A stretch of 47,018 bases of DNA from a virus, in IMG/VR virus record IMGVR_UViG_3300033052_000112, positions 1-47,018 of that record, one strand, 5' to 3'. A program made the translations under genes and the position numbers. Positions within the stretch are counted from its first letter, which is position 1, and the number at the start of each line of letters is the position of its first letter. Shown here in pieces: positions 10,544 to 29,933 of the stretch. A model generated the notes under the pieces. That model saw nothing but the letters and a program-made list of their open reading frames with translations. It was not told where the DNA came from and did not search any database.

Positions 10544-10565
10544 AGTAGCCCCACAGAAGGTTTCT

Positions 10566-10603
10566 GCGGGTTTACGGGGCAGCTAGGGGGGGTTGAATCG
10601 CCC
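10566..10603 (-). promoter_or_regulatory. late-operon motif, copy 1 (before tail fibre)
   Basis: On the minus strand it reads GCGATTCAAC then a C-run, CTAGC and GTAAACC. It stands in the 73-bp gap between the 117-residue gene and the tail fibre. The core 10-mer is identical to the copies at 25171-25180 and 29924-29933, all on the same strand and all just downstream of a stop codon. Function unknown. Confidence 0.55.
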
Positions 10604-10616
10604 GTCAGTCAGGGAG

Positions 10617-10970
10617 CTACCCCTTAGGATGCGCCTTTGCGAACTCGGCCATTATTCTGAGTGCAATGGCGGTAGGCCATGCTTCGGCGATTTGCGAGTT
10701 TGCGAGCTGGCAGTATTCCAGAACGCAGGCCCAATCAGGCTCTGAAAGCCGGACTGGCTCCATTTCCCGATATGCCCCGTCGCTTATGAAGGCCGCAACG
10801 ATCCGCTCAAGCGTGGCGGTATCGATGTGCGCCTGCGCCCGTGCTTCAGGATGCGCAGCAATAAGAGACTGGATGAAACTGGAAACGTCTTCCCCGCCGA
10901 CGTCGACAGTGAGATATCCGTCATGCTGCTTGTAGCCTTTGAACCTTCGCCAGAACGCGCGGATACTCAT
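10617..10970 (-). CDS. hypothetical protein paired with RHH regulator, 117 aa
   Basis: It is translated from an ATG that overlaps the RHH gene stop as ATGA. The N-terminus is basic (MSIRAFWRRFKGYKQ), and the rest is helical with an acidic middle (GAYREMEPVRLSEPDW). A small DNA-binding protein followed by an overlapping gene is the layout of toxin-antitoxin or immunity pairs, but no toxin motif is visible, so I leave the function open. Confidence 0.6.
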   Translation of the reverse strand: MSIRAFWRRFKGYKQHDGYLTVDVGGEDVSSFIQSLIAAHPEARAQAHIDTATLERIVAAFISDGAYREMEPVRLSEPDWACVLEYCQLANSQIAEAWPTAIALRIMAEFAKAHPKG

Positions 10971-11113
10971 CCTTTTGACAGACCTTTTTCGATGAGGCGG
11001 CGGATTGCCTCTGAGCGTGAAACGATGCGCTCCTTGAAGCGATAGTCGTCAATCCGATCCACAAGAGATTGCGGCATCGGGGTGATGATGCGGGGGTCTT
11101 TCTCTTCAGCCAT
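10967..11113 (-). CDS. ribbon-helix-helix (Arc/CopG-type) regulator, 48 aa
   Basis: The product begins MAEEKDPRIITPMPQSLVDR and continues IDDYRFKERIVSRSEAIRRL and IEKGLSKG: a beta-strand, then two helices with the S-R-S-E-A-I-R-R-L-I-E-K-G signature of RHH repressors. It is about the size of Arc. It is the first gene of a short leftward transcript. The predicted promoter puts +1 at or next to the ATG, and the palindrome at 11156-11175 lies just upstream and is a likely operator. It probably controls itself and the divergent plus-strand island. Confidence 0.8.
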   Translation of the reverse strand: MAEEKDPRIITPMPQSLVDRIDDYRFKERIVSRSEAIRRLIEKGLSKG

Positions 11114-11119
11114 GCCGGA

Positions 11120-11148
11120 CGGATACGAGAATATGCCCGCTATGTCAA
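11120..11148 (-). promoter_or_regulatory. promoter of the RHH gene
   Basis: The minus strand carries TTGACA (11148-11143), a 17-base spacer and TATCCG (11125-11120). Start-site geometry puts +1 at 11113, the A of the ATG, which implies a leaderless transcript. The -10 box is weak. Confidence 0.5.
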
Positions 11149-11155
11149 ATATGCT

Positions 11156-11175
11156 GTTGGCATAGGTATGCCAAC
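11156..11175. promoter_or_regulatory. palindromic operator between divergent units
   Basis: GTTGGCATAGGTATGCCAAC has two perfect 9-base arms around GG. Further TATGC/GCATA half-sites flank it. It lies just upstream of the RHH promoter and overlaps a possible rightward -35 box. Confidence 0.65.
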
Positions 11176-11185
11176 GACATACTTA
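11157..11185 (+). promoter_or_regulatory. possible rightward promoter of the island
   Basis: TTGGCA (11157-11162), 17 bases, then TACTTA (11180-11185). The match is weak, but some promoter is needed for the plus-strand genes that start at 11255, and this one would be covered by the palindrome. Confidence 0.3.
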
Positions 11186-11254
11186 GCATAACAGAACGGC
11201 AGGGCGCTACCAACACCCCGCCGCTCTTAACCGCTAACGAGAGGCTTACTCGTC

Positions 11255-11368
11255 ATGGCTGAATTTGCTTTTACACCGCTGCAGTCCCCTTCGCCACTGG
11301 TTCCGAGCGACAGCGCCATCATCCGCGAGATTTTGGCGCAGCTTGTGAAGAACGGAGGGCGTAGCTGA
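11255..11368 (+). CDS. small hypothetical protein, 37 aa
   Basis: First gene of the plus-strand island. It has GAGG about ten bases before the ATG, begins MAEFAFTPLQSPSPLVPSDS and ends in a short helix (IIREILAQLVKNGGRS). Its stop overlaps the next start as TGATG. No family is recognised; the tight coupling is the main support. Confidence 0.5.
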   Translation: MAEFAFTPLQSPSPLVPSDSAIIREILAQLVKNGGRS

Positions 11369-11589
11369 TGCACCAGTTCAGCTTCATCCCCCAAAACCAC
11401 CTCGCCGCACGGGATCACTCAGGCCGGTTCTTAATGGTGGACATGGATGCTCGTCCTTCCTCGGGCAGGGTATGGGCCAAAGCCTTCGGAGCATGCCCGG
11501 AGATTACCACCGCCGCTGCGGCAATCCGTGATGGCATGCGCGTCCTTGGCGGCGTTGTCGGCTTCTACAGCGCGATAGGTGCATCATGA
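11368..11589 (+). CDS. small hypothetical protein, 73 aa
   Basis: The start is coupled to the preceding TGA. The product begins MHQFSFIPQNHLAARDHSGR and has a beta-rich first half (FLMVDMDARP). It ends in a mixed helix with a hydrophobic tail (VLGGVVGFYSAIGAS). Function unknown. It is part of the accessory island between the spike and internal-virion blocks. Confidence 0.55.
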   Translation: MHQFSFIPQNHLAARDHSGRFLMVDMDARPSSGRVWAKAFGACPEITTAAAAIRDGMRVLGGVVGFYSAIGAS

Positions 11590-11750
11590 CTGCCAAGGTC
11601 ATCCCCTTCGCTCCAAAGCCAAAACCCTTTGATCCCTTGGCTTTTGCCCCCGACGTCCCGCCTTTTGACAGGTCCAAACCAACCCATGTCCGCGCGTGGA
11701 ACACCATATGTGCGCTTGGCGCGTCCGAGTGCGCAAAGCGCGAACGCTGA
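11586..11750 (+). CDS. small Pro-rich hypothetical protein, 54 aa
   Basis: ATGA overlap with the upstream gene. The N-terminal half is Pro- and Phe-rich (VIPFAPKPKPFDPLAFAPDV), as in short linear binding peptides. The C-terminal half (THVRAWNTICALGASECAK) is helical with two Cys. No family is recognised. Confidence 0.5.
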   Translation: MTAKVIPFAPKPKPFDPLAFAPDVPPFDRSKPTHVRAWNTICALGASECAKRER

Positions 11751-11817
11751 CAACATCGGGCGATTCAAATGTCCGCGAACACAACCACTCTTCCGCTTCT
11801 CACGAAAGGAGGCCGTC

Positions 11818-12570
11818 ATGGCCGCTAAATCCGAAACCACTGAAATCGTCATTCCTCCGCTGATGCGCGGTGTCACTCGCATTCGCATCATCGGCCAGAC
11901 ACCCCTGTTCCAGAACCGCATGACTGCCAAGGTCAAGATGGGCTTGCTCGTCGGCTCACAGAAGAAGACCAAGGCGGAGCGCGCGGGCATCAAGCACCAT
12001 CCCATCGATGAGTACCGCGACAGTGCGGAAATCTTGGGCGATGGCCCCACTGCGCTCGGCCTGCGCATCGTTGCGCTCAAAGCGGCCATGTGCACGGCAG
12101 CGCTCGAAACGAAGGGTATCACCAAGACCTCCTGCCAGCGCCTGCTGTTCATGCCGGGGGAATTTGCCCCGCTCTATGGAACGCCGAAGCTCCGCATGGA
12201 CGTTGTACGCTCAGCAGATATCAACCGGACGCCCGACGTTCGTTCACGCGCCTACCTCGAACGGTGGGGCGCGGAGATCGAAATCCACCACGTTCTTCCG
12301 CAGATGCCCGTCAGCGCCGTAGTCACGCTGGCTTGCAATGCTGGCGTCCTCGTGGGGATCGGCGATTATCGACAAGAGAAGGGCAAAGGCGCGTTCGGCA
12401 GCTTCCGGGTTATTACTCCCGATACCGAAGATGCCGAATGGGATGATCTGGTCGCCAACCATGGCCGCGAGGCACAGTTGACTGCACTGGCAAACCCGGA
12501 GCCTGCTGATCGCGACACTGCCGATCTGCTCGAACACTACCAGAATGAACTGAAGCGGAGGGCGGCATGA
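11818..12570 (+). CDS. conserved-looking phage protein of unknown function, 250 aa
   Basis: The ATG at 11818 follows a perfect AGGAGG; the frame upstream to 11629 has no good start. The protein has a dense globular pattern: GVTRIRIIGQTPLFQNRM (about 17-34), KHHPIDEYRDSAE (about 60-72), LLFMPGEFAPLYGTPKLRMD (about 110-129) and VGIGDYRQEKGKGAFGSFRV (about 180-199). The repeated G-x-G and K-G-x-F-G-x-F phrase suggests nucleotide or nucleic-acid binding, but I cannot name a family. Its stop overlaps the next gene, so the two probably act together. Confidence 0.7.
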   Translation: MAAKSETTEIVIPPLMRGVTRIRIIGQTPLFQNRMTAKVKMGLLVGSQKKTKAERAGIKHHPIDEYRDSAEILGDGPTALGLRIVALKAAMCTAALETKGITKTSCQRLLFMPGEFAPLYGTPKLRMDVVRSADINRTPDVRSRAYLERWGAEIEIHHVLPQMPVSAVVTLACNAGVLVGIGDYRQEKGKGAFGSFRVITPDTEDAEWDDLVANHGREAQLTALANPEPADRDTADLLEHYQNELKRRAA

Positions 12571-13091
12571 TGGACAAGCCCAAGATGCGCTTCACCAAGG
12601 AACTGCGCCAGCAGATCGTGCAGGAGTTCGCCGAACGGAACGGCGGCGTATTCGATGCAGGCGCGTTCCTGTCCGAAGTCAATCAGGTCGGCGAGACGCA
12701 TCCGGCCTACGAGTGGTTCGAATGGAACGACCGGAAGGCCGCCCGTGAACACCGACTTGATCAGGCCAGATCGTTTGCGCAAGGTCTCCGCATTCGGTTC
12801 GAAGTCGAGACCGTGGAGCGCGGCAAGGTAACAGTTGTCAGCAGGGCAATGCCTCTGGTGATTTCGCCTGTCGCGACCCGCAGCACCGGGGGAGGCTATA
12901 AACTGGCCGACCCCAACGACCCAACGCATCTTGCCGAGCTTGCCCGCCAAGCAGCACAGCAACTGCGCTGGTTCAATGAGCGGTTCGAGGCCGCTCTGGC
13001 ATTTGCGGAGGTTCCTCTTGATGGGCTTATCGCGATTGTGGAGCGTCTCGAAGCCGCAGGTTCCGCGGGCTTGCCTGAGGCGGCGGAATAG
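12567..13091 (+). CDS. hypothetical protein, 174 aa, partner of the 250-aa protein
   Basis: It begins MMDKPKMRFTKELRQQIVQE. An N-terminal helical part (to about residue 70, with HPAYEWFEWNDRKAAREH) is followed by a beta-containing middle (RIRFEVETVERGKVTVVSRA), a hydrophobic stretch (MPLVISPVATR) and a long C-terminal helical region. The four-base overlap with the previous gene points to shared function. The N-terminal phrase is reminiscent of small phage proteins that bind DNA ends, but I would not assign a role. Confidence 0.65.
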   Translation: MMDKPKMRFTKELRQQIVQEFAERNGGVFDAGAFLSEVNQVGETHPAYEWFEWNDRKAAREHRLDQARSFAQGLRIRFEVETVERGKVTVVSRAMPLVISPVATRSTGGGYKLADPNDPTHLAELARQAAQQLRWFNERFEAALAFAEVPLDGLIAIVERLEAAGSAGLPEAAE

Positions 13092-13094
13092 GCA

Positions 13095-13312
13095 TGGCAG
13101 GCAAGGTGAGGCTTGGTACGGCGCGGTTGGGTAAGGCAGGCAAGGCGTGGCCAGGACTGACTTGGTGAGGGCTGGTCGGGCGAGATATCGCAGGCTAGGC
13201 AACGCGAGCTTAGGCAAGTTAAGGTTGGTCAAGGCAGGCACGGCATGGCTTGGCTAGGCCGGGCTTGGGCAGTCGGGGCAGGCTAGGCGAGGTCAGGCTT
13301 GATGAGTCGAGA
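13095..13312 (+). repeat. degenerate G-rich pentamer array
   Basis: About 220 bases are built of five-base units with GG in register (ggcat ggcag gcaag and so on) and occasional phase shifts. G greatly exceeds C on the plus strand. It follows the last gene of the island and precedes its terminator, so it would form most of the 3' UTR. The minus-strand ORF through it, rich in Pro and Leu, is a by-product of the repeat. Confidence 0.75.
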
Positions 13313-13337
13313 ACCGGCTTGGTACAACCAAGTGAGA

Positions 13338-13360
13338 GGGGTCGGGAAACCGGCCCCTTT
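13338..13360 (+). terminator. rho-independent terminator of the island
   Basis: GGGGTCGG and CCGGCCCC pair (one G-U) around a GAAA tetraloop and are followed by TTT. A small CTTGG/CCAAG hairpin precedes it at 13317-13331. It separates the plus-strand island from the convergent late gene. Confidence 0.8.
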
Positions 13361-15829
13361 CTACATGCGCGGAGTTTCCTCTGCGACATTCGCCAGATCG
13401 GGCACTCGCTCAGGACTGGTCTCTCCCGGTCTCCACCAGTAATCCGTGCCGATGTCCTGCGCCCGCTTTTCCAGCATGTGCCAGCTTTTCGCGTAGTGCG
13501 GGTCCAGTGCCTCCGCCAACTGGTCGCTGAACATCCTCTGCAGCGCTAGGCGGAGATACCAGATATTGCCCCCTGGCATTTCGTTCGCGACGATCTTGGA
13601 CGCAGCCCCGCCAACATTCCCATCCTTGTCGCTGAAACCCATCTCGTATTTGGCTTTCTGCACCCCTGCGCCGACAAGGCGGGTAGCATTGTCCAGCGTA
13701 TCGATCACCGGCCCGCCAATCCACTTGGCCCAACTCGACATGCGCGGCTCGACCACCATATTGAGCAAGTCGCCAATCATGCCCCAACCACCTCCCTGTA
13801 ACGAGGCGGCTACCCAAAAGTCAGGGCTATCCATCGGGCGTGGGTCACGGCCCTTGAGGATTTCGCGAAGCTGGATTGAAACCGCCCCGGCCATTGTCGT
13901 CACCAGTGCGAACCGCGTCAGGTATTGCGCGCGCTTCTTCCAGTCGGACATTTCCAGAATGCGGCGGCCATGCGTGAGAAGCATGCTGATGCCGAAAGAT
14001 TTGAACAGGAGACTATTCAACACAGTCTCGCCTAGGACTGTGCCCTTCTTGATACTGTCATGCATCACCGCCCGCGTTTCGAAATCGGCTTGCTGGACTG
14101 CTACCTTTTGCTCTCGTGCGATCATGGACAGGAGGCGGTCGCCAAGTTCGGGGTCCGCAACATCCTGCGCGAAAATCCAGTCCGCGCCATTCTCCGACCG
14201 GATCGGGGTGGACCGGATAGCATCCCAGCCTTCACTGCCGATCCCACCTCTTTCCAGCATCTCGCGGAAGCCTTCATCAAGGTCCGCGAATGCCTTGCCG
14301 CGCACGTCGGCAATGTGCCCAAGAACGCCCATGCCAAAGGCCGCATGACCGGAATCGGTCCAAGCGGTTAGCCCGCTCACCCGCAGCACGCCTTCGGCCA
14401 TTCGCCCCATAGCGCCAGCGGCCAGTTCATCGTTCAAAGCGCGTAGACGACCTGCCGCATCATTGATCCACCCTTCGTAGATCAGGCCCATGCGCGCAGC
14501 GAGCGCCCGATGTTCCGCGTTCTTCGGATTGAGCAGTTTGAGCTGGTTGCCCATGATCTGCGTGAAGGGCAGTTTGTAAAGCCGTGCCGCGTTGTACTGA
14601 GTGGCGATGTCACCTGGCAGGGCCGAGACGATTGCGCTTCCGAGGCTCTTGGCGGTTTCGAACGACCGCACCGCCTTGCCGACGTTCGCCAGCCACTCAC
14701 GCGCCGGTCGCTGATTGAGGCCGTTGTATTCGTTCCAGAGCGCATCCATGCGAGACAGGGTGGACTGCACAGCCTTGACCGCCTGCCCCTTGTCGTCCGC
14801 CGTGTAGGCAGCTTTCTCAACCGTATCGCGCAGCCACTTCACACCCGCATTCGGATTGGGACCGAACCGCTCCATGGCGGCGATGTCACGTGCCATGCCC
14901 TTGATGTAGCCGGTCATTGCGCCGTAGGGCGTGCCACGCCCAAAGGCCTCGTGATAGGTCATCCAGCTATCGGCGTCCTTGAACACCAGAAAGCGCGGAT
15001 CGGATCTGCGATTGGCAACGCTCCTGCCGCCCACCCCGCCAGCATCACGCTTGAACCAGCCATCAGACCTGATCGTATCGTAAACATCGGACAAGGCGCT
15101 TTCGAGCGATGCCCCGGAGAATGGCAGGCCCGTCCGCTCGTCTATCATCGCCTCGCGGTCCAGAAGCGGTTTGATCGTGTCCCGCCAATTTTCGAACCCG
15201 GCTTCGCGGACTTTCATCCAGTCATGGCTTTGCGGGAGATAGCCGCGCCCGTTGCGCAGCTTGCCTACGTCCCCGCCAGCAGCATTGAAGCGGCGGCGCA
15301 GCATCTCGGCTGCACCAGTCCAAGCCTCAGCCATCTCTTTCGCCGATGTGCTTTCGACCTTCTCGCCGAACACGGCTCGGACAACATCCTTCAGTTCGGC
15401 TTCATTCCTCAGCCTGCCCAATGGGTCCGCATGATGGCGCTGCAGGATATCGCCGATCATGGAAAACGCGCGGCGCTGGATAGCCTCCCGTCGTCCGTCG
15501 ACATTGGGGAAGTGGATGCCATTGCGGTCGGTGAAGAATGCGGGCGCGGCGTCGGGCGTGATAGAGCCATCGGGCGAAGCGGAGCGCAGGTCCGCGTCAA
15601 TCTTCTGGCGCGCCATGATGCTTTTGCCCGTCAGGAACTTGCGACGGATTGCCGCCCGTTCCATCTGGTCCAGAACGATCTTGCTCGCCAATGCAGCGGC
15701 TGCGTCGTCACCGAGGTCATCGGCCAGACTGGCGCGGGCATCTTCGTATGCAGAGAGGATTTCGTCCGCCTGCGACTGATCCAGTTCCCCGCTATCAGTG
15801 AGGTCCGTAACGCAACGGTCGAGGGACAT
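13361..15829 (-). CDS. large internal virion protein (T7 gp16-like position), 822 aa
   Basis: The start ATG at 15829 has AGGAGT five bases upstream; the frame further up is not needed. It begins MSLDRCVTDLTDSGELDQSQ and is mostly long charged helices. Hydrophobic segments occur near residues 440-460 (SLGSAIVSALPGDIATQYNA) and 680-700 (LTRFALVTTMAGAVSIQL). As the last and largest of three consecutive virion genes after the tail tubes, it occupies the place of the T7 ejection protein gp16. It should be ejected with the DNA to build the trans-envelope channel. No enzymatic domain is evident. Confidence 0.7.
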   Translation of the reverse strand: MSLDRCVTDLTDSGELDQSQADEILSAYEDARASLADDLGDDAAAALASKIVLDQMERAAIRRKFLTGKSIMARQKIDADLRSASPDGSITPDAAPAFFTDRNGIHFPNVDGRREAIQRRAFSMIGDILQRHHADPLGRLRNEAELKDVVRAVFGEKVESTSAKEMAEAWTGAAEMLRRRFNAAGGDVGKLRNGRGYLPQSHDWMKVREAGFENWRDTIKPLLDREAMIDERTGLPFSGASLESALSDVYDTIRSDGWFKRDAGGVGGRSVANRRSDPRFLVFKDADSWMTYHEAFGRGTPYGAMTGYIKGMARDIAAMERFGPNPNAGVKWLRDTVEKAAYTADDKGQAVKAVQSTLSRMDALWNEYNGLNQRPAREWLANVGKAVRSFETAKSLGSAIVSALPGDIATQYNAARLYKLPFTQIMGNQLKLLNPKNAEHRALAARMGLIYEGWINDAAGRLRALNDELAAGAMGRMAEGVLRVSGLTAWTDSGHAAFGMGVLGHIADVRGKAFADLDEGFREMLERGGIGSEGWDAIRSTPIRSENGADWIFAQDVADPELGDRLLSMIAREQKVAVQQADFETRAVMHDSIKKGTVLGETVLNSLLFKSFGISMLLTHGRRILEMSDWKKRAQYLTRFALVTTMAGAVSIQLREILKGRDPRPMDSPDFWVAASLQGGGWGMIGDLLNMVVEPRMSSWAKWIGGPVIDTLDNATRLVGAGVQKAKYEMGFSDKDGNVGGAASKIVANEMPGGNIWYLRLALQRMFSDQLAEALDPHYAKSWHMLEKRAQDIGTDYWWRPGETSPERVPDLANVAEETPRM

Positions 15830-15898
15830 AGAGACTCCTGCTTGTTGGCAGACCCTTAGACAGGTTATGTCGTCAGTGAATCGCAGGAGGGTGGGCGC

Positions 15899-16213
15899 AT
15901 GGACGATATGATCTGGTTTGGCGTCTGGCTCTTTTTTGGCGGTCTGCAAATAAATGCTTTAGCCAAGATGTTCCCGAACAAGCTGGCATGGCCGCTCGCC
16001 TCTCTGGCACTCGCGATTGGTTCGGTCTCAATGGGATTGTACCCGTCATTCTTCGACCGTGGCGAAGGGTTCTTTACACCAAATCGCGTCGTTTCGATGC
16101 TTATAGCGAGTATTGTTTTTGTCGGCAGTGCCGCATACGCGGAATATCAGATCGTTCTGCGATACCTTGAACAAGCGGACAACCGTATCCGCGATTTGTA
16201 CACCAAGCGGTAG
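15899..16213 (+). CDS. plus-strand membrane protein within the late operon, 104 aa
   Basis: It is preceded by AGGAGGG. Hydrophobic helices lie at about residues 3-20 (DMIWFGVWLFFGGLQINA), 28-48 (LAWPLASLALAIGSVSMGLY) and 65-85 (VVSMLIASIVFVGSAAYA), followed by a charged tail. It runs opposite to both neighbours and is convergent with the next gene by one base. The A+T content is higher than around it. This is the pattern of a moron, for example a superinfection-exclusion protein; that role is inference. A weak promoter (TTGTTG, 18 bases, TATGTC) lies upstream. Confidence 0.65.
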   Translation: MDDMIWFGVWLFFGGLQINALAKMFPNKLAWPLASLALAIGSVSMGLYPSFFDRGEGFFTPNRVVSMLIASIVFVGSAAYAEYQIVLRYLEQADNRIRDLYTKR

Positions 16214-16214
16214 A

Positions 16215-18755
16215 TCACAAGCACTTCCTCACCGCCTCGATACCAGCAAGGGTTTTCTTGATATCTTCCTCGGCCTCAGCCGCAGAGATCACCCCCTTTC
16301 CATCATCGAGGTCAACACGGTAGTTCGCCATACCATCGTCACCGAGATCGGCGCGGATATCGTGCCAAAGGCTTTCCGCTACCTCTGCAATACCATCCCC
16401 ATCCGGTTCGTCGAATCGCGCCATGACCGCCTCAGGGGGGGGCGTAGTTTCTGGCTCAAGAAGCGCGCGCACCTCATCAGCGCTAGCCGGAAACCGCTCC
16501 GTTCCCAGCACCGCCTCGCCGGTCGATGGGTTCCACAGCATTGGGCCACGCTTGGTTTCGAACCTGTAATTGCCACTGGCATTGCCTTCGCCGTCGGTGC
16601 CCCAAGGACGGGCCTTGCCTGCCAGATCGGACGGAAGGTTGATCGTAACGCTTTCGGGCGCTATATCTGCATCAGCCCCGCGCGCAGGGGAGCGGTCCTG
16701 CGCAACTTCGTTGGCACCTCGGTAGTCCGCCGATGACGGGGCCTTACCCTTCACCTGATACGCTGAAAGCAGCCAGTGCTGCGTCTGCCCGTCAAAATCG
16801 AGCCGAACGACGGCGCGATGATCGAGGCTCTGTAGAACGACCCGGTTCTTGCTCTGAGACTTGACGCCCATCTGGTCGAGCAGTTCGGGAAGCCTGTCCA
16901 GCACCTCCTGATGCTTCTGGACGATCTTAGCCAAGCCGCCCTTGTCGCCGCCCCACAGAACGTCGATTGGTCCAACATCCTTGTGAAACAACGCGCCTTC
17001 GATCACACCCGCCTGATCGGCAATAAGGCGGTCGCGCGCATCCTCCCACACCGATTGTCGAGTGACCACCGGCTCAGAGCCAAGTGCTTCAGCATCGGAC
17101 GCAGCTTGCGCAATCCGCCAGGACGTATCATCCGGGAACAGGTCGCGCCTCAATTGGGGCAGCGCGATATCCTCACCCTCGTACCGCGCTTCCGGTTCGC
17201 GCCCCTGCTCGTCCATGCGGGACCGCTCAATGTCGAGGGAGCGAGCCTCCTCATCGAGAGAGGCTATCAGTGCGTCAGCTGCGTCGGTTTCTTCACCCGC
17301 AATCCGCTCTATCGGCGCGTCACCTGCCACACCCATTTTCTCGCGCGACCATGCGATGAAGTCCCCGGCTGTCATCCCCTTCATGTGCGGGTTCGCCGCC
17401 ATGACTTCGGCAGGCATGATATCTGAGAGCAGACGGTCGGGCTTCGCTGAGAATACCCGTGCGGCCCCACCCTGCCCAAGATGGTGCACGACATAGAGAT
17501 TGCCGGGATCGTCGCTGAGACCGTGTTGGCGGAGGAAATAGGCGTTGTCCTGCGTCAGTCGCTGCATGAGACGCGTTTGTAGCGAAGCATCGCCCTTCCG
17601 CCCGAGAATCGCAGCATCCGAAAGACCGCTGTTCGGGAACTCTCGTCGATAGGTCTTGAGCCAAGTGCCATTGGTGAAGCCGTACAACCCCGAGGCGCTG
17701 GACGTTTGCGACCTCGCGTTAGGATTGTTGCCGCTTTCCTGTTTGGAGACAGCCGAGATGAACGCGCCCACACCAGAAGGTTTCTTGGGCTGCGGCACGA
17801 AACCTGCCGGGTTGTCGATGCGCGCCGTCGCATCACGGAGGCGGTCGTTATGGACGGTGCTGGCGGTATAGGTGCCGACGTAGGGGCTTGCCTGCTCGAT
17901 CTGCGCATCACGTTCAACGACGTTAATGGCCGCAGCCTGCTCCGGGGTAAGCTCCCACTCTCCGCGCACAGAGTCCTTCAGCGCCTTGGCGAGGCGCACG
18001 TCTTCGGGGATCAGTTTCTCACCAATCTTGTCGATTGCCTTACCGGCCACATGCCCCACAGCCGGAACGCCCGCACCGACAACTGCGGCAACACCAAGCC
18101 CGACAAGGCGCTCCTGCGCAGTTAGGGCTTCACGGCCCTGCGCCTTGCGCTCCTGATTGATCATCGGTTGCTCAACCAGTTCGGTAGCCGTGTTGATCGC
18201 TGCTTCACGCAGGATGGAACCCGCCACTGTCTTTGCCGTACCCCCGATGCCCATGCTCAGCGCATTGATCGGATCAGTGAAGCCTGCGCCTATTCCCCCC
18301 GCTAGCCATGGCAGAGTCGGCGTCCGTGACGCTGTTTCCTCGTCTTTGGCATGCCGGGTCTTGAACTCGCCAATCCAGCGCTTGTCGAACTCTGCCCGCG
18401 TATTCGGTACGTCGGGGAATGCTTTCGGGTTTCTCGAACGGATCGCTTCAATCTCGCTCCAAATGCGCGAATATCGCTCCTCGTTGTCTGCGCCGGGGAC
18501 ATCCATGATGGGATCAAGCATCCACTGTCGCCGGAACGTGCGTGAGGCGGCGGGATTATCGAGAATCGAAAGTCCTAGATCTCGGTACGTGGTGCGGTTC
18601 AGGTTTTCAAACGTGCCAGGGATATCGTCCCGGTTTGAACGGAAAGTCGCCTGCAATCCCTCCAGCCAACCAGGGGTTTCTGGTGGGCGCGTGTCAGCAG
18701 GGCCAAAGCCACTTACGCGTTCCGGGTCGAAAGTGAAGGCGTCCTGAGTAGGCAT
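16215..18755 (-). CDS. internal virion protein with lytic transglycosylase and PBECR-like nuclease domains, 846 aa
   Basis: Residues 330-435 hold a goose-type/SLT transglycosylase: FISAVSKQESGNNPNARS with catalytic Glu340, then ASGLYGFTNGTW and YVVHHLGQGGAARVF. It would open peptidoglycan during DNA entry. Residues about 585-670 (GGDKGGLAKIVQKHQEVL, NRVVLQSLDHRAVVRLDF, HWLLSAYQVKG) match the Phage-Barnase-EndoU-ColicinE5/D-RelE-like (PBECR) family of putative nucleases carried on ejected proteins. A hydrophobic region at 145-240 could insert into the membrane. The ATG overlaps the upstream stop as TGATG. Confidence 0.8.
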   Translation of the reverse strand: MPTQDAFTFDPERVSGFGPADTRPPETPGWLEGLQATFRSNRDDIPGTFENLNRTTYRDLGLSILDNPAASRTFRRQWMLDPIMDVPGADNEERYSRIWSEIEAIRSRNPKAFPDVPNTRAEFDKRWIGEFKTRHAKDEETASRTPTLPWLAGGIGAGFTDPINALSMGIGGTAKTVAGSILREAAINTATELVEQPMINQERKAQGREALTAQERLVGLGVAAVVGAGVPAVGHVAGKAIDKIGEKLIPEDVRLAKALKDSVRGEWELTPEQAAAINVVERDAQIEQASPYVGTYTASTVHNDRLRDATARIDNPAGFVPQPKKPSGVGAFISAVSKQESGNNPNARSQTSSASGLYGFTNGTWLKTYRREFPNSGLSDAAILGRKGDASLQTRLMQRLTQDNAYFLRQHGLSDDPGNLYVVHHLGQGGAARVFSAKPDRLLSDIMPAEVMAANPHMKGMTAGDFIAWSREKMGVAGDAPIERIAGEETDAADALIASLDEEARSLDIERSRMDEQGREPEARYEGEDIALPQLRRDLFPDDTSWRIAQAASDAEALGSEPVVTRQSVWEDARDRLIADQAGVIEGALFHKDVGPIDVLWGGDKGGLAKIVQKHQEVLDRLPELLDQMGVKSQSKNRVVLQSLDHRAVVRLDFDGQTQHWLLSAYQVKGKAPSSADYRGANEVAQDRSPARGADADIAPESVTINLPSDLAGKARPWGTDGEGNASGNYRFETKRGPMLWNPSTGEAVLGTERFPASADEVRALLEPETTPPPEAVMARFDEPDGDGIAEVAESLWHDIRADLGDDGMANYRVDLDDGKGVISAAEAEEDIKKTLAGIEAVRKCL

Positions 18756-20701
18756 CAGTCGTTGAACACCGCTTCGAATTGCCGGCCATCCCGGCCCATC
18801 ACGGTTTTATCCCCAACCATCCACTTGTAGCGGCGGGGTCCTATCGCAACGGGACGTGCCGAACGGAGGTCAGCAGGCGTGCCATCAGGATTGACTGGCC
18901 CTTTCCCGGGATTGGTCCTGATCCACTTGAATACGCGCGTCGCAAATTCATTCTGGGTCATGCCATCAGGCACAAGGAAGTATTGACCGTTAACCCAGCC
19001 ACCGAGGCCACCCCTCTTGTTAGGGCCAGTTCCGACCGAACCGAGGGCGCGGTTCAGGCTGCGCTCAAAGGTCACATTGTTCATTGGCTCGCCGGTCCGA
19101 TGCGCTTCGTTCGCAGCAAGGCTTTCGGCAAGGCTAAGGATCGCATTTTTTTGCGATTGCGGCATAGCGCCAAGGGCTTTGTCGAAGCCAGCGCGGACAG
19201 TCTTTATGCGCTCCTGATCGCGGGGCGCTTCTACGGCAATCAGTTTCTTGTCGGCCTGCAGTGCGGCCTTGCCATCCAAAGCATCGCGCCGTGTCTCATA
19301 TGGCAGCGTCACGACCTGCTGCAGGTATGCGTCGTCTGGCGCGACCTTGCGCGCAGCGGCAGCGGCGGACTGCGCAGGGAACACGGCCAGCATGTTCATT
19401 ACAGCCTCGTATCCACCCGGCCCGGTCTTGAGTTTCGTTTGCAGGCTCTGCGCCTCAACATCGGTGAGAGGATCGGCCACACCCATCCGCTTCGCCCACG
19501 CCGCGCGCGCAACAAAGCTATCCGCCTTGTCGGTTAGGGTCGGGGGAACCTCGTTCGGGGAGCCGTTCTGGATATAGAACCCGACAGGGTCGGAGGCATA
19601 CTGGCTATCGAGCGAGCCGGTCTTGTCATTCAGGTATTTCAGTTCGGCTTGCTGGTCGGGAGTCCGCTTTTTCACCGGAATGCTATTGAGAGCGGCAATC
19701 CGCTGCTGCCGCTGGATCGGCGTGGCCTTGCTCCACGTCTGCCCCCACACAGCCTCCTGGCCAATCTGCTTCAGTTCGGAGGTAACCGACTTGTCACCCT
19801 TCTGGGCATAGTACTGCGCCAACGCGGGGAGCCTGCCCGAGACATCAATGCCACGGCCCGCGTCATTCCGAACCGCTGCGAGTTCGTCAGACATTTGCTT
19901 GTCGACAACCGCCGCCTGCCGCTCGGTTTCAATCTCTTTTGCCCTAACCGCGACCCGCAGAGCATTCGATGCAGCCAAGCGGTCATCAGGCGTCATTTCA
20001 TCGCCATGTGCCGCCATGTAGGTTTGTGCGATGGGTAGATCACCGTCAGTGATGGCGCGCTTTATCGTGTCGGCACGGATTGCCGACTTGGCAGTCTGGA
20101 CCTCCAATGCCGTTTCTTCCGGCGAATAGCCGCGCAAGGACGCATATCGCTGCGCCGCTGCCGCCGCTTCATCTACCAGCGCCGTGTGTCGATCTGCATC
20201 ACCATAGCTGTTGACCGCGAGAGTGGAGGCTTGGCTTTTCTCCGCTGCCGCAGTGCCAATCAGCATCACCTTGTTCTGATTAGCCGAATGCCTCCCAATT
20301 GCCTCGACATAACCCAAAGCATCAACGTCCAGAAGTTGCTGCGCGTATTTGCGCATGCGTGGATTGGTCGCCTTGTCCAAGACTTCATCGCGAAGTTTGT
20401 TCACTCTGTCTTGCGTTACCGCGCCGGAGTCGACCGCCTCCTTCCCGTTAAGGACTGAGAACTGCGTGTAAATCGGGTCGGCTTGCTCCTTGTATTCCAA
20501 ACGAAGCTGGCGGGCGTAATCCTGATCAAGGGTATCAGCGCGCCTATCCTCGTCCTGCGCGAACTGGCCAACACTCTGAGCAAGCCGCCGCCCTGCCTCT
20601 GCGACCATCTCACCGCCAGAAGGCCCAGACGGAGCGCGGAAACGTGCCTCAACAGACGGCGTGCCTTGCGTGGCGGGATTATAGACAGGTGCCCGAGGCA
20701 T
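18755..20701 (-). CDS. internal virion protein (T7 gp15-like position), 648 aa
   Basis: Almost wholly helical, rich in Ala, Gln and charged residues. It begins MPRAPVYNPATQGTPSVEAR; conserved-looking parts include RRLAQSVGQFAQDEDRRADT and the C-terminal IGPRRYKWMVGDKTVMGRDG. Length, composition and place between the gp14-like and transglycosylase genes fit the T7 gp15 ejection protein. Coupled by TGATG at both ends. Confidence 0.75.
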   Translation of the reverse strand: MPRAPVYNPATQGTPSVEARFRAPSGPSGGEMVAEAGRRLAQSVGQFAQDEDRRADTLDQDYARQLRLEYKEQADPIYTQFSVLNGKEAVDSGAVTQDRVNKLRDEVLDKATNPRMRKYAQQLLDVDALGYVEAIGRHSANQNKVMLIGTAAAEKSQASTLAVNSYGDADRHTALVDEAAAAAQRYASLRGYSPEETALEVQTAKSAIRADTIKRAITDGDLPIAQTYMAAHGDEMTPDDRLAASNALRVAVRAKEIETERQAAVVDKQMSDELAAVRNDAGRGIDVSGRLPALAQYYAQKGDKSVTSELKQIGQEAVWGQTWSKATPIQRQQRIAALNSIPVKKRTPDQQAELKYLNDKTGSLDSQYASDPVGFYIQNGSPNEVPPTLTDKADSFVARAAWAKRMGVADPLTDVEAQSLQTKLKTGPGGYEAVMNMLAVFPAQSAAAAARKVAPDDAYLQQVVTLPYETRRDALDGKAALQADKKLIAVEAPRDQERIKTVRAGFDKALGAMPQSQKNAILSLAESLAANEAHRTGEPMNNVTFERSLNRALGSVGTGPNKRGGLGGWVNGQYFLVPDGMTQNEFATRVFKWIRTNPGKGPVNPDGTPADLRSARPVAIGPRRYKWMVGDKTVMGRDGRQFEAVFND

Positions 20702-25128: not shown

Positions 25129-25144
25129 ATCAAACCCCTTTTGT

Positions 25145-25180
25145 TGGGGGATACGGCCAGCCCTTGGGCGGTTGAATCGC
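25145..25180 (-). promoter_or_regulatory. late-operon motif, copy 2 (before tail tubes)
   Basis: On the minus strand GCGATTCAACCGCCC starts directly after the TGA of the 65-residue gene and precedes the tail-tube block. The core 10-mer is identical to copies 1 and 3; the tail is less conserved. Confidence 0.55.
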
Positions 25181-25378: not shown

Positions 25379-25407
25379 GAAAAGAGGGCCGAGGTTTCCC
25401 CCGGCCC
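25379..25407 (-). terminator. terminator after the capsid genes (T7 T-phi-like position)
   Basis: On the minus strand GGGCCGGGG, loop GAAA and CCTCGGCCC form a 9-bp stem with one G-U, followed by TCTTTTC. It stands between the capsid/cement genes and the tail-tube genes. Confidence 0.7.
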
Positions 25408-25414
25408 CGCCCCC

Positions 25415-25591
25415 TTAGTCTTCAGCCTTGGCACGAGGGCGGGAACCACCCTTCTTGCCGTCGCCATCATGATCGAGAGGATCGATCGCTTCCCACGTCT
25501 TGCCCTTGGGGGCGTCAGTCGTGAACTCTTCACCCGCGAAGATGTAGCGTTCGTCGACATAGACGTTTTCAGTTGCGCGATAGGTTGCCAT
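25415..25591 (-). CDS. small hypothetical head protein, 58 aa
   Basis: The ATG overlaps the cement stop (TAATG). The product MATYRATENVYVDERYIFAG, then EEFTTDAPKGKTWEAIDPLD and a Gly/Lys/Asp tail, has the form of small phage proteins encoded after the capsid. It is the last gene before the intra-operon terminator. Confidence 0.65.
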   Translation of the reverse strand: MATYRATENVYVDERYIFAGEEFTTDAPKGKTWEAIDPLDHDGDGKKGGSRPRAKAED

Positions 25592-26034
25592 TACGCACCC
25601 CCGATCGTCTTGTTGGTCTGGCGAGCCATGACCACACCGGCAGTAATCTTGCCGGTCGTCGGCGCAGTGCCTGCTACGGTGTAGTTCAGGCGGACATAGC
25701 GCGCCTTGGTCCCTTCAGGGAACTCATAGGGCGTATCGAACTGGAAGCCAGCCACCAGAGAGGCAAGGGCAACAGTGGCCCCGCTCTGGATCGTGGTCCA
25801 GGTCGAATTGTCCGGCGAGGTCTGCACCGCAACAGTCAGCGAAGTGAGGTTGTTGAACGTCTCGGTTACGCGAACCGAGAGGTAAACGCATTCCTCACCA
25901 ATGCCGATGTCGCGCGTCATGGCCGAGCCACCGAAAGGCGTTCCGGTTGCGCCGAGGTCGATCACATTGGTCGACGCCGCCGTTGCCGTGATTGCCTGCG
26001 CATCGGAGAGCAGGAGCGAGTTATCGTAGATCAT
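25591..26034 (-). CDS. Bbp16-like capsid cement protein, 147 aa
   Basis: It begins MIYDNSLLLSDAQAITATAA and has the all-beta pattern of Bbp16-family cement proteins (CVYLSVRVTETFNNLTSLTV, QTSPDNSTWTTIQSG, KARYVRLNYTVAG). AAGGAG lies upstream. Its place directly after the major capsid gene is the same as in BPP-1-type phages, where it stabilises the shell. Confidence 0.8.
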   Translation of the reverse strand: MIYDNSLLLSDAQAITATAASTNVIDLGATGTPFGGSAMTRDIGIGEECVYLSVRVTETFNNLTSLTVAVQTSPDNSTWTTIQSGATVALASLVAGFQFDTPYEFPEGTKARYVRLNYTVAGTAPTTGKITAGVVMARQTNKTIGGA

Positions 26035-26046
26035 CGGTCGATCTCC

Positions 26047-27066
26047 TTACGAAAGCGCTGCTTCGGTGTTGAGCAGGGCGTCGGTTTCACGGATGGGGAT
26101 GCCGCGCCAAGTCAGGACTTCCTCACCCTGAATCTCCATGGGCCGCAGACGCACGAAGTTGTCGGTCGAGCCGCCGCGACCATTGGTCTGTTCGGCATCG
26201 AGCGCTTCCATCAGCGTACGGTTCATGTAGATCACAGTGCGACCCGGCGACATCTGGCCCGGCTTTTCCATCTTGTAGGCGCGACGACCCTGCAGCTTGT
26301 AGTAAGCCTTGCGCATCAGCGGATTGAGCGCAGTCGAACCAGCAATGAGGTCCGAAACGTCAATGTTCGCGATACGGGCGTTGTAGCGCCAATCCTTGAC
26401 GGCGATGCCCGCGTGCTGCGTGAACATCTCTTCCTTCACGTAGTAAGGATTGTTCGATGCATCGAGGACGCGCTGCTCGCCCTTGTCTTCGCGCATGACA
26501 CCAGCAGGGATGTTTTCCGGCGTCAGCATCGAGGTCTGACCGTCGCCATGGGTGACGAACCAGATCGAAGCGTTGTCGGAACCCGAGCCACCGCCGTTGA
26601 TGACGTTGGCATTGGCCAGCGTGTTGTAACGCGGTGCGAGACCGTGGAACTGCTTGCCGTTGATCAGCACGTTCGAATAGAACACAGCGCTTTCCATGGT
26701 CTGGGCCATGGTTTCGAGGAAGCCGTTTGCTTCCATAAGCCGCAGCTTCGAAGCCTGATCGGGCTTCAGCTTGAGCAAGCGGGCGTCGACGCTCGACAGA
26801 CCTTCAATGAAGCCGGTCGTGTCTTCGACCTGCGTGTAAGCGCCCTTGCTCTGTGCAATGCCCTGATAGAGCGCGCCCCAAGAGACGGACGGCAGACCAG
26901 TGCGGATCGAAGAAACGTGCTTCGATCCCTTGTTGCAGGTGATGACGTTGGCGTCCTTCATGAAGGGCGTCAGGTTGGTCAGGGCTTCGACGACATCGCC
27001 GATCCCGTCACCGCCCGCTTTCAGAACGTCGATGAGATTCCAGTAGGTAGTGCCAAGAACGGCCAT
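26047..27066 (-). CDS. major capsid protein, Bbp17-like, 339 aa
   Basis: It begins MAVLGTTYWNLIDVLKAGGD. Recognisable stretches of this capsid group are VSWGALYQGIAQSKGAYTQV, DARLLKLKPD, NVLINGKQFHGLAPRYNTLA, YMNRTLMEALDAEQTN and LTWRGIPIRETDALLNTEA at the C-terminus. Length is normal. GGGGGT stands upstream. It is preceded by the scaffold gene and followed by the cement gene. Confidence 0.9.
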   Translation of the reverse strand: MAVLGTTYWNLIDVLKAGGDGIGDVVEALTNLTPFMKDANVITCNKGSKHVSSIRTGLPSVSWGALYQGIAQSKGAYTQVEDTTGFIEGLSSVDARLLKLKPDQASKLRLMEANGFLETMAQTMESAVFYSNVLINGKQFHGLAPRYNTLANANVINGGGSGSDNASIWFVTHGDGQTSMLTPENIPAGVMREDKGEQRVLDASNNPYYVKEEMFTQHAGIAVKDWRYNARIANIDVSDLIAGSTALNPLMRKAYYKLQGRRAYKMEKPGQMSPGRTVIYMNRTLMEALDAEQTNGRGGSTDNFVRLRPMEIQGEEVLTWRGIPIRETDALLNTEAALS

Positions 27067-27077
27067 GATTACCCCCT

Positions 27078-27728
27078 TTAGTCGTTGGGATAGAGCCGCT
27101 TTTCGAGCGGCGTTTGGGTTGAACCTCCCGCGCCGGAGCGCACGAAGTCACCATCCTCAGACACCATCTCACCAAGACGCCGCGCCATGCGGATCATGTC
27201 GGGATGATTGCCAAGTCCGGTTTCGGTGAGCAGTTGGCGGAAGGGATGGCCTTCGGTGTACCCGAGAGCATCAAGGCCCTTGCCTGCCAAATGCACGGTC
27301 TGTTCGCGGTTGCCGCCGCCAATCTCGGCATCAGCGTTGAAGGCATCGAGCCATTCCCTGCGCTGCGCCGCCATCAGGTCCGTCATCTGCGCGGTCTGTG
27401 CAGTGATAGCCTTGTCCATTGCCTGCTTGACGATCGGCAGAAGAGCGTTGGCCTGTTCGTTCGAAAGGCCCGCTTCCTTCAGGATCGGTTCGGCAGTGCC
27501 CAGCAGGTCCGCGTCGATCTCCATCCCTTCAAGGGCGAGTTCGTACTTTTCGGGCACTACGGGGGTGGCTGGTTCCTCCGCCTTGACTTCCTGTTCCGGG
27601 GGCGTGGCCTGTTCGTCAGCCAGCGCGCCGCCAAGCACGGTTTCATCGACGACAGCATCAGGCGTCGTCGTCTCCACCGGGGAGGTCTCTGTAGCGGTCT
27701 GTGTCTCGATTACGGTTTCGTCTGCCAC
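27078..27728 (-). CDS. scaffolding / capsid assembly protein, 216 aa
   Basis: The N-terminal 70 residues are acidic and low in complexity (Glu, Thr, Pro, Val). They are followed by EKYELALEGMEIDADLLG and a helical core (AEPILKEAGLSNEQANALLP, AMDKAITAQTAQMTDLMAAQ), then a basic C-terminal end (TPLEKRLYPND) of the kind that binds capsid subunits. The GTG start has AGGAG upstream and overlaps the Bbp19-like gene by 71 bases. The place before the capsid gene fits a scaffold. Confidence 0.85.
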   Translation of the reverse strand: MADETVIETQTATETSPVETTTPDAVVDETVLGGALADEQATPPEQEVKAEEPATPVVPEKYELALEGMEIDADLLGTAEPILKEAGLSNEQANALLPIVKQAMDKAITAQTAQMTDLMAAQRREWLDAFNADAEIGGGNREQTVHLAGKGLDALGYTEGHPFRQLLTETGLGNHPDMIRMARRLGEMVSEDGDFVRSGAGGSTQTPLEKRLYPND

Positions 27729-28014
27729 TGGTCGGCTCCTTGGGGTTCATTGCTTCGCGGATTGCTGCATCGAGCGTCGTGATCGCTTCAGGATCAGCGG
27801 CACGAATTTGCTCAGGTTGGCCAAGGTGGGCCATCTGCAGCAGGTCGAACCCCAGGCTTCGGCGTCCCTCGAAATGGCCGAGGTCACGCCCTGTTTGCCC
27901 ATTGGCAGGAGCGTAGTGGCCGAGGATGCCCGCGCTTTGAATCGCGGCGAACAGGAAGCGTCGGAACTCAGGGCGAGACAGAAGAAATTCAGCGTCGTTC
28001 GGATCTAGGATCAC
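27658..28014 (-). CDS. Bbp19-like protein, 118 aa
   Basis: FLLSRPEFRRFLFAAIQSAG and GHFEGRRSLGFDLLQMAHL are the core phrases of the Bbp19 family, encoded between portal and scaffold in many podoviruses. The Arg/Asp-rich tail is translated from sequence shared with the scaffold start. The start overlaps the portal stop as ATGA. Its role in head assembly is not known to me. Confidence 0.8.
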   Translation of the reverse strand: MILDPNDAEFLLSRPEFRRFLFAAIQSAGILGHYAPANGQTGRDLGHFEGRRSLGFDLLQMAHLGQPEQIRAADPEAITTLDAAIREAMNPKEPTSGRRNRNRDTDRYRDLPGGDDDA

Positions 28015-29696
28015 GCAGGCATCATCCTGTTGAGGAGGCTTTCACCGCCGCCGACATCGGTTTCAGAAAGCAGGCGGGCTGCATCTGCGCCTTGCTGCAT
28101 GGCCGGAGCCATCGCCGCCATCTGCGCGGCCTGTTGCTGTTGTTGACGCGAGGCGCGGATAGCCTCCACATCCTTGATGTTGCGGATCAGTTTAGCAGGC
28201 GCACCGGCACGATAGCCGTATTCATCAATCGCCTCGTCGAAGTTGATCTTGTCGAGCGCTTCAGGATTGACCGCAGCCATGTTGCCGACAAAGCCAACAA
28301 CGCGCTCGATCTGGCCAATGCCGACCATGCGCTGCATCTGCGTCAGGATCGACACGAACTCGACATTGATGGGAGCGCCGGACAAGGCTTCAGGAACAGG
28401 AGGCAGCATCTGCCCGCGCGACATGATGCCGAACGCGCGATCGATCGCAATTTCCAGCTTCTCATTGGCAACGCGCTCAATGACCGGGCCAAGCTGCGTC
28501 AGCTTTTCCTCGTTGCGCGCCGCAATCTCCTCCATGTTGCGAGGCTGCACCCCGCGCATGTTGGTAATGGCGTTAAACAGGTCAGCGAAGGAAAGACCAT
28601 CGATTTGCTGATGGCACTTCACGATCTCCTCGCCGATCGCGTTCACGGCCTGATACGGCATCTGGTACGGAACGATGATCTGGTCTTTGTCGACGCTGGA
28701 CGCGGTGACAGTGCGGCCCGGTTCACCAGTCAGGCGGATACCTGCAGGCACGATCTTTTCAGGCTTAACCATCGCGTCGATGGCTTCATTGCGGCGCTTG
28801 GCCTGCATCTGCAGTTCACGCAGCGCAGGCAGGCTTTCCATGCCGGGAGAGACTCCATAGGTGTCGCCGCCCACGACATCCCAACGCGGTGCCCAGAAGG
28901 GCTGTTCTTCGTATCCCGAGACGCGAAGCAGATTGCGCTCACCGTCCTGGTCATCCCAATAGACCGAACGCCACGGCTTTGACCCGAACTTGAGCGGGTT
29001 GTGGTCAGGGTTTGGCTCAATCGCGTGATAGAACTCAACCGGCTGTTCGTAGTCCGACTTGTCGTAAAGCCCACGGATACGGTTCGATACGCGGTTCTTG
29101 AACGTGTCGACGGCTTGCTTCACCGTCATCGGGCAGAAGCGGTAGAGCGTGTCAGGCGTCATGGCATCGCCCAGAGCGATCCAGTATTCCCCGGCAGTCA
29201 GGGCATGGCAGACCGAACCGACTTGCGGATGCTCGACCATCACGCAAGCCTCAGTGCCGAACAGCCCTTCCTCTGCGTATCCAGCCTTGACTGCGCCATA
29301 GAAGTTGCCGCCAGCAAAGAAGGCATACATGCGGCGCTCGACTTCGGAGAGCCATTCACGGATGCCTTCGCCCTCGTTCATCTGGTCATCAGCCAGCTTG
29401 AGCGTGAACCATGGACGCGATGCACTCGACAGACCCGAGGTCATGCCATTGGCCAGCGTGCGGAATGCTTCGATGCCGTGCGGATCAAACAGCGCCTTGT
29501 TGCGCGTGCGGCGGAGAGAGCCTTGCTTGTCCTTCTGGGTAGTCAGGAAGCGAGAGCGTGCAGGCTGCGCAAAGCGCGCGATATCCCGCCATTCGTCCTC
29601 ATAGTCAGTGCGAATGTTCTTGAGGCCCACAAGCCGAAGCCTGCAGTGCTTGCGGATTTCCGCGTCTTTACCGGTGATTTCCGGAGCGTCAGCCAA
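28011..29696 (-). CDS. portal (head-to-tail connector) protein, 561 aa
   Basis: This is the T7-like Head-tail connector family. The N-terminal RTDYEDEWRDIARFAQPARS and GIEAFRTLANGMTSGLSSAS, then RPWFTLKLAD, are strong landmarks. The middle MESLPALRELQMQAKRRNEA and the Gln-rich C-terminus (RQQQQQAAQMAAMAPAMQQG) are also typical. I place the start at the TTG at 29696, eight bases before the stop of the 60-residue gene; the ATG at 29750 would overlap that gene by 62 bases. It forms the dodecameric ring for packaging and tail attachment. Confidence 0.9.
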   Translation of the reverse strand: MADAPEITGKDAEIRKHCRLRLVGLKNIRTDYEDEWRDIARFAQPARSRFLTTQKDKQGSLRRTRNKALFDPHGIEAFRTLANGMTSGLSSASRPWFTLKLADDQMNEGEGIREWLSEVERRMYAFFAGGNFYGAVKAGYAEEGLFGTEACVMVEHPQVGSVCHALTAGEYWIALGDAMTPDTLYRFCPMTVKQAVDTFKNRVSNRIRGLYDKSDYEQPVEFYHAIEPNPDHNPLKFGSKPWRSVYWDDQDGERNLLRVSGYEEQPFWAPRWDVVGGDTYGVSPGMESLPALRELQMQAKRRNEAIDAMVKPEKIVPAGIRLTGEPGRTVTASSVDKDQIIVPYQMPYQAVNAIGEEIVKCHQQIDGLSFADLFNAITNMRGVQPRNMEEIAARNEEKLTQLGPVIERVANEKLEIAIDRAFGIMSRGQMLPPVPEALSGAPINVEFVSILTQMQRMVGIGQIERVVGFVGNMAAVNPEALDKINFDEAIDEYGYRAGAPAKLIRNIKDVEAIRASRQQQQQAAQMAAMAPAMQQGADAARLLSETDVGGGESLLNRMMPA

Positions 29697-29871
29697 GGGT
29701 AGGCTTGCCGACCGAGGGCGAGCCAAGCGTGCCCTGTGCCGAAGTGACAAGGCCAGCCATCAACATACGGCGGCGCTTGCTGTCATCCATGGAGCCAGCA
29801 GGAGCGCCAGCATCAGGCAGCTTTACCGCCTGCCGGTCAGGGACGGACGGGATATCAGGTGCGCCGCAGAT
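29689..29871 (-). CDS. conserved small virion-region protein with ATC start, 60 aa
   Basis: A perfect AGGAGG stands five bases before an ATC codon that begins a 60-codon frame: initiator, then CGAPDIPSVPDRQAVKLPDA and KRRRMLMAGLVTSAQGTLG, ending GKPTLG. The C-terminal RRR ... TSAQG ... GKPTLG is a widespread pattern in small phage proteins encoded near the portal, and these usually begin with Met-Cys. An in-frame TAG lies just upstream of the ribosome site and no ATG, GTG or TTG lies nearby, so ATC seems to be the real start unless it is a sequencing error. The 3' end overlaps the portal. Confidence 0.7.
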   Translation of the reverse strand: MCGAPDIPSVPDRQAVKLPDAGAPAGSMDDSKRRRMLMAGLVTSAQGTLGSPSVGKPTLG

Positions 29872-29897
29872 GGTAGCCTCCTATCGAATGGACAGGA

Positions 29898-29933
29898 GGC
29901 GGTTTAAGCGGGGCTAGGAGGGCGTTGAATCGC
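29898..29933 (-). promoter_or_regulatory. late-operon motif, copy 3 (before portal block)
   Basis: GCGATTCAACGCCCTCC followed by CTAGC and TTAAACC on the minus strand. It is closely similar over about 36 bases to copy 1 and stands in the 70-bp gap after the 60-residue gene downstream of the large terminase. Confidence 0.6.

Follow-up and report, generated by a model that had tools for sequence, protein, structure and literature searches.

In phage T4, the late promoters of e, soc, 49 and I-TevI overlap the 5' strand of a hairpin that sequesters the Shine-Dalgarno (SD) sequence, and RNA begun at the late promoter lacks that strand (PMC3014915). In the gene transfer agent (GTA) cluster of Caulobacter, which is activated by GafY/GafZ, GafY helps sigma-70 polymerase at a degenerate -35 (PMC11150451). 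Here we analyse a window of 47,018 nucleotides (nt), meaning the whole stretch of DNA studied, from the IMG/VR virus record IMGVR_UViG_3300033052_000112, which its portal, major head and tail proteins place among the epsilon15/BPP-1-like podoviruses. Within it, a repeated 10-mer, GCGATTCAAC, seems to form, together with a second box downstream, the late promoter of this phage and its relatives.

We propose, with a probability of roughly 0.7, that the late gene blocks would be transcribed from this promoter by the host RNA polymerase together with a phage-encoded factor, and that each block would also be gated at translation. As in the T4 late genes, the SD is predicted to be hidden in read-through RNA and free in late-promoter RNA; T4, in contrast, has the gp55 sigma factor and TATAAATA where a two-box element is found here, and in the present phages the arrangement recurs at several structural-gene blocks, with leaderless starts at others. 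GafY/GafZ, acting on a phage-like structural cluster of an alphaproteobacterium, is the closest functional precedent for our candidate activator, a winged-helix protein, but here the -35-like box is strict and conserved and there are several promoters per cluster. Pfam scans of the candidate turned up no similarity to GafY/GafZ, although no search was aimed at them. Epsilon15/BPP-1-like podoviruses have portal and virion genes homologous to those of the window, whereas, among the more distant relatives, those searched yielded neither the motif nor the winged-helix gene. The element is likely what switches on the late genes in a whole group of temperate phages of Sphingomonadales, so far uncharacterised, for which we offer a promoter consensus, a candidate activator and predicted starts. 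We found none of these in the literature searched, where queries on the sequence and on leaderless late phage genes returned nothing relevant.

A two-box element ahead of the late gene blocks

An initial annotation of the window had noted the 10-mer in three same-strand copies, each soon after a stop codon, and both observations were verified: exact copies lie at 10592-10601, 25171-25180 and 29924-29933, all on the minus strand (late sense), where 0.12 are expected and no shuffle gave three, and the gaps to the preceding stop codons are 15, 0 and 8 nt. At one mismatch the count comes nearer to chance (9 in the window versus 4.7 expected), so that it is the exact copies that are special. The blocks said to be headed by the copies are indeed those of the fibre, the gp11-like tail gene and the portal, except that copy 3 directly precedes a 60-codon open reading frame (ORF) and not the portal gene. 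An extended likeness of copies 1 and 3 had also been seen; it includes the shared TAAACC, which we take as the second box, but copy 2 belongs to the set over its full length too, with TATCCC after the same 17 nt. The C-rich tail had been counted as part of the repeat; between the boxes this stretch is not strongly conserved except for C-rich positions adjoining each of them. The second box and the hairpins described below, which are the most informative parts, were absent from that annotation.

The three putative promoters are as follows, the transcription start (+1) of the third being placed by reference to the leaderless sites of relatives:
10569..10601, minus strand: putative late promoter 1, ahead of the fibre gene; GCGATTCAAC at 10592-10601, 17 nt, TAAACC at 10569-10574; predicted +1 at 10562.
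25148..25180, minus strand: putative late promoter 2, ahead of the gp11-like tail module; GCGATTCAAC at 25171-25180, 17 nt, TATCCC at 25148-25153; predicted +1 at 25141.
29901..29933, minus strand: putative late promoter 3, ahead of the small ORF and the portal gene; -35-like GCGATTCAAC at 29924-29933, 17-nt spacer, -10-like TAAACC at 29901-29906; predicted +1 at 29894.

Those relatives that bear an organism name come from genomes of Novosphingobium (sp. Leaf2 and SG751A, for example), Sphingomonas and Croceibacterium. The portal relatives have the 10-mer at these same junctions, and when they are aligned, the second box stands exactly 17 nt past the first, as TAAACC, TATCCC, TAGACC, TAGCCC and so on, giving the consensus GCGATTCA[A/C]n-N17-TAnnCC (short form GCGATTCAAn-N17-TAnnCC), with C-rich positions before the second box; the first base may also be C or T, and some phages have GGGATTCACG. 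In relatives with good coverage the element occupies four positions: one heads the 60-codon ORF that precedes the portal gene, one the gp11-like tail gene, one an internal virion gene of very large size and one the fibre gene. Each phage so covered has it ahead of the same three or four genes.

A matrix of the element was built from 36 sites and scanned over 26 contigs oriented with the late genes forward. At a score >=13 and a spacer of 17, it gave 72 late-sense matches against a single antisense one, and the late-sense counts dropped to 3-21 when the second box was shifted by 1 to 3 nt; as the matrix was seeded with the 36 sites, these contrasts of strand and spacing weigh more than the raw count. 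The spacer is 17 in 58 of 71 late-sense matches. Among the 36 sites, the last position of the -10-like box is C in 31 and T in none, and CC is conserved at -15/-14 and -8/-7. The bipartite structure, its spacing, its strand and its positions are drawn from such comparison, as are the leaderless geometry and the co-varying arms presented below.

With a spacing of about 17 nt and a start predicted 6-7 nt past the -10-like box, the element has the geometry used by bacterial RNA polymerase with a sigma factor. The initial annotation had compared it with T7 late promoters, which are alike in heading late blocks in several same-strand copies and different from two boxes 17 nt apart; a T7-like promoter was rejected on this geometry, and the single-subunit RNA polymerase domain (PF00940) was not found in 17 motif phages, a weak argument given that no positive control rang in that search. 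Nor is this a housekeeping sigma-70 promoter, the -10-like box being TAnnCC with T never last, and a sigma-70 consensus scan misses both element copies within its range. We conclude that each repeat is very probably the -35-like, upstream half of a late promoter specific to phages of this kind. In this regard, the earlier suggestion of a promoter for an unusual activator has gained in weight from the fixed 17-nt spacing, the late-sense bias, the leaderless starts at a fixed distance and the co-occurring winged-helix gene.

Two groups of matches were set aside. Exact 10-mers about 50-110 nt past the portal gene (L009-L011, L013, L014, L017, L019, L030, L031) lie in coding sequence and have no -10-like box, and pattern matches in L067, L069, L070, L073, L075, L195, L196, L202 and L206 were judged to be chance, with no second site, unrelated sequence or low guanine-plus-cytosine content.

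Predicted leaderless starts and hairpins over the ribosome-binding site

After collapsing sites with similar leaders into 66 groups, the distance from the hexamer to an ATG is exactly 6 nt in 26 of them, the next commonest value accounting for 5. Taking the second box as a -10 puts the usual start at the seventh base, which is the A of these ATGs and would yield a leaderless mRNA. As an independent test, GCGATTCAA-N18-TAnnCC with an ATG downstream was looked for across a whole collection of 2.9 million viral contigs. With the ATG at 6 nt, 25 stretches were returned, most of them where a late gene begins, gp11-like and internal virion genes included. A control distance of 9 nt returned 13, for the most part AT-rich and unrelated; a single one has an open frame at the ATG, and none lies at a recognised late gene. 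These data fit leaderless mRNAs at the 6-nt sites of relatives, to which this geometry is confined, all three copies of the window having a leader. Promoter-N6-ATG can thus serve as a cheap sequence test for finding such phages.

The same geometry bears on the other earlier suggestion, that of an RNA-processing or antitermination site, which would act within a long late transcript. The sites do lie in real operon gaps, past stop codons and with hairpins after them. At leaderless sites, however, the motif is wholly upstream of the predicted 5' end and would be outside the mRNA, and this reading is therefore disfavoured; it is further opposed by the fixed 17-nt spacing of two boxes, by the ATG 6 nt past the box in many phages, where there is no SD hairpin, and by the lack of any Rfam match. 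We regard it as very improbable.

At the sites that are not leaderless, those of the window included, the ribosome-binding site sits in a leader of about 18-30 nt and pairs with the sequence that separates the -10-like box from the predicted +1. In the resulting hairpin, these 6-9 nt would be the 5' arm and the ribosome-binding site itself the 3' arm. In the window the predicted hairpins are:
29876..29900, minus strand: strong portal hairpin GCCTCCTGTC-cattc-GATAGGAGGC, -18.2 kcal/mol; 5' arm (29891-29900) mostly upstream of +1, 3' arm holding the SD AGGAGG.
25134..25150 (approximate), minus strand: weak gp11 hairpin CCCC-aacaaaa-GGGG, -7.0 kcal/mol for the segment; 5' arm upstream of +1, 3' arm in the SD-like AAGGGG.
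10550..10570, minus strand: fibre hairpin CCCGCAGAA-acc-TTCTGTGGG, -15.3 kcal/mol; 5' arm between the -10-like box and +1, 3' arm over most of the SD-like GTGGGG.

The arms read GCCTCCT...AGGAGGC at the portal ORF, CGCAGAA...TTCTGTG at the fibre gene of the window, and CATCGGT...ACCGGTG, ATCGCC...GGCGAT, ATCCGCA...TGCGGAT or ATCCTGAA...TTCAGGAT at the fibre genes of other phages. In a partner-swap test, cognate arms fold at -12.7 kcal/mol versus -7.1 when swapped for the fibre, and at -14.8 versus -11.2 for the portal, none of 2000 shuffles being as stable in either case; the segment from +1 onward alone folds at only about -1.7 kcal/mol. The mean openness of the SD is 0.16 in read-through RNA and 0.44 in promoter-started RNA, compared with 0.33 when the upstream part is shuffled as a null, and 16 of 31 sites are individually significant (p<=0.05); for the portal hairpin of the window the respective values are 0.00 (read-through) and 0.34 (promoter-started). 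Pairing of the SD with sequence upstream of the late +1, the hallmark of T4 gene e, is present in the portal and fibre leaders as classes. Taken together, these folding results suggest that read-through RNA is probably closed, and promoter-started RNA open, to translation, which would probably prevent premature synthesis of virus parts. A leaderless ATG embedded in a longer RNA is without an SD, and the leaderless sites may thus share the gating consequence of the hairpins.

It could also be that the promoter is correctly recognised while the hairpins merely stabilise mRNA 5' ends or serve as features of the promoter DNA, of the N4 virion RNA polymerase type. A 5' hairpin can protect mRNA, and the arms do abut the promoter. 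We find this distinctly unlikely, as most of the 5' arm would be untranscribed from this promoter, the arm sequences vary while their pairing is kept, the 3' arm is the ribosome-binding site and the leaderless sites are without a hairpin.

The co-varying arms, the second box and the 6-nt distance to ATG are equally left unpredicted if the repeats are boundary sequences kept by module-swapping recombination, with no regulatory role, an explanation that we find hardly credible. It would account for the sequence just upstream of the element, which differs among the close relatives L003 and L004 and the window, and for two further loci. In L029, two -35-like boxes lie about 108 nt apart (4146 and 4254) ahead of the portal ORF, as if a segment had been inserted between duplicates. 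In Croceibacterium xixiisoli (L083:9200-9800), the phage borders on host-like sequence, by appearance a transporter gene, just before the element and portal ORF, so that the prophage remnant ends near the promoter. Such a boundary effect is better read as a consequence of shared promoters.

The candidate reader and the proposed switch

Variation of the 10-mer is concerted within each genome: differences amount to 0.67 between loci of one genome and to 1.45 when a given locus is compared across genomes (0 of 5000 permutations), with CCGATTCAA dominant in G006, G007 and G016 and a box ending in CACG in G004, G012 and G019. Such a pattern suggests that each phage has a trans-acting reader of its own, and for this role the window provides one candidate that tracks the motif:
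31928..32293, minus strand: candidate activator, a 121-amino-acid (aa) winged-helix protein encoded just upstream of the terminase genes.

The protein gives a weak match to LexA_DNA_bind (E=0.0017), has an AlphaFold2 model of H-H-H-E-E order (helices H, strands E) with a predicted local distance difference test score of 77, and finds no match among 50,697 phage records. Wherever this could be checked, its gene stands upstream of the large terminase gene. Among the genes of the window outside the virion and packaging block, it alone has a homologue in every portal relative that bears the motif and is covered near the terminase. It occurs in 7 of the 10 contigs reached by the DNA pattern alone (G041, G043, G044, G045, G047, G048, G050) and is missing from the other three: G046, of 28 kb; G049, a fragment of 5 kb; and G042, whose match was judged to be chance. 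None of the 13 relatives without the motif, some of which are fragments, has it. A second, more diverged winged-helix paralogue is found in the records of G008, G010, G041 and G047. With somewhat better than even confidence, we regard the winged-helix protein as the best candidate for the late activator.

Sigma factors were considered as readers as well. The sigma-70 region 2 domain (PF04542) is absent from the 17 motif phages in a search whose positive controls worked, though a strongly diverged sigma factor could escape it, and a phage late sigma factor of the T4 gp55 or SPO1 type was rejected on this result. The same absence, together with two boxes 17 nt apart and a non-housekeeping -10 of TAnnCC, would suit a host alternative sigma factor, the winged-helix protein then having another role. 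This is unlikely, if not strikingly so: four host genomes, prophage copies included, hold 3-7 motif matches at <=1 mismatch versus 0-3 for a reversed control, which is no clear surplus and led us to reject a host-wide regulon; concerted box variation per phage suits a phage-encoded reader better; and the alphaproteobacterial EcfG, RpoH and RpoN consensuses, taken from general knowledge, differ. It is also conceivable that the winged-helix protein, or another phage protein, replaces sigma wholly and reads both boxes. The C that ends the -10-like box in most sites, never T, and the CC pairs at -15/-14 and -8/-7 would be odd for sigma-70 with an activator, but a protein of only 108-174 aa, with one recognisable winged helix and no sigma-like domain, makes such a replacement improbable.

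In the scheme that we favour, host polymerase with a phage activator, early transcription would run leftward through the replication genes, the winged-helix gene and the terminase, and would be able to continue into the portal block; a consensus scan found no convincing terminator in the stretch between terminase and portal block. The read-through RNA would hide the ribosome-binding site of the portal ORF. The winged-helix protein, once accumulated, would occupy the -35-like box and guide polymerase to a poor -10, in which TA is kept and the last T is missing. RNAs from the late promoters would then have open or leaderless starts and be translated. The exact +1, the identity of the activator, the timing and the effect on translation are here what we infer from the comparison.

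Several findings weigh against this scheme. In the window, the gp11 hairpin is weak and reaches no significance in the openness or the partner-swap test, and the fibre hairpin, a stable fold, is not significant in the openness test; in the fibre leaders of G008 and G010 the SD is not clearly hidden. The portal site of G017 has CAAAAG where TAnnCC is expected. G046, a motif contig that may be a fragment, has no winged-helix match, and the association of motif and winged-helix gene is confounded by descent, the motif-less relatives being more distant (portal <=45% identical) and some of them fragments. Finally, the conserved CC ending the -10-like box is not accounted for by a plain sigma-70 class II model.

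A stronger, genome-wide rule can be put forward only tentatively, at somewhat less than even odds. Each late block would be translatable only from RNA begun at its own promoter, by virtue of a hairpin arm in promoter DNA or of a leaderless start; a new winged-helix activator would act on a -10 unusable by sigma-70 alone; and the AUC/AUU start of the pre-portal ORF would be an extra brake. A few T4 genes are known to tie translation to the choice of promoter; the present phages suggest that such a link can be the design of a whole genome, in which hairpins and leaderless starts would be interchangeable.

The ORF before the portal gene and neighbouring features

Promoter 3 directly precedes the following ORF:
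29689..29871, minus strand: 60-codon ORF (phrog_831) with an ATC start, upstream of the portal gene; no in-frame canonical start lies between the upstream stop and the ATC.

At the same place, homologues begin with ATC or ATT in 11 of 15 phages, with ATG in 3 and with TTG in 1, and where the codon is ATC or ATT, a strong SD lies 5 nt before it and no earlier ATG, GTG or TTG is in frame. The ORF appears to start at ATC, an argument that phages can conserve AUC/AUU as start codons.

A consensus scan gave one further feature, located between promoter 2 and the capsid block:
25385..25408, minus strand: terminator-like stem of 10 pairs followed by CTTTT.

The window has three element sites in all, and none was found ahead of its internal virion genes, which differ from those of relatives. 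A virion-region protein at 16215-18755 (minus strand) has a weak match, below the curated cut-off, to PBECR1, a phage Barnase/EndoU/ColicinE5-like nuclease (E=8.6e-5). At 13361-20701 (minus strand) several separate ORFs, without such a promoter, take the place of one big internal virion ORF, which in relatives such as G001 and G017 is a single frame of about 2,150-2,500 codons behind a leaderless late promoter.

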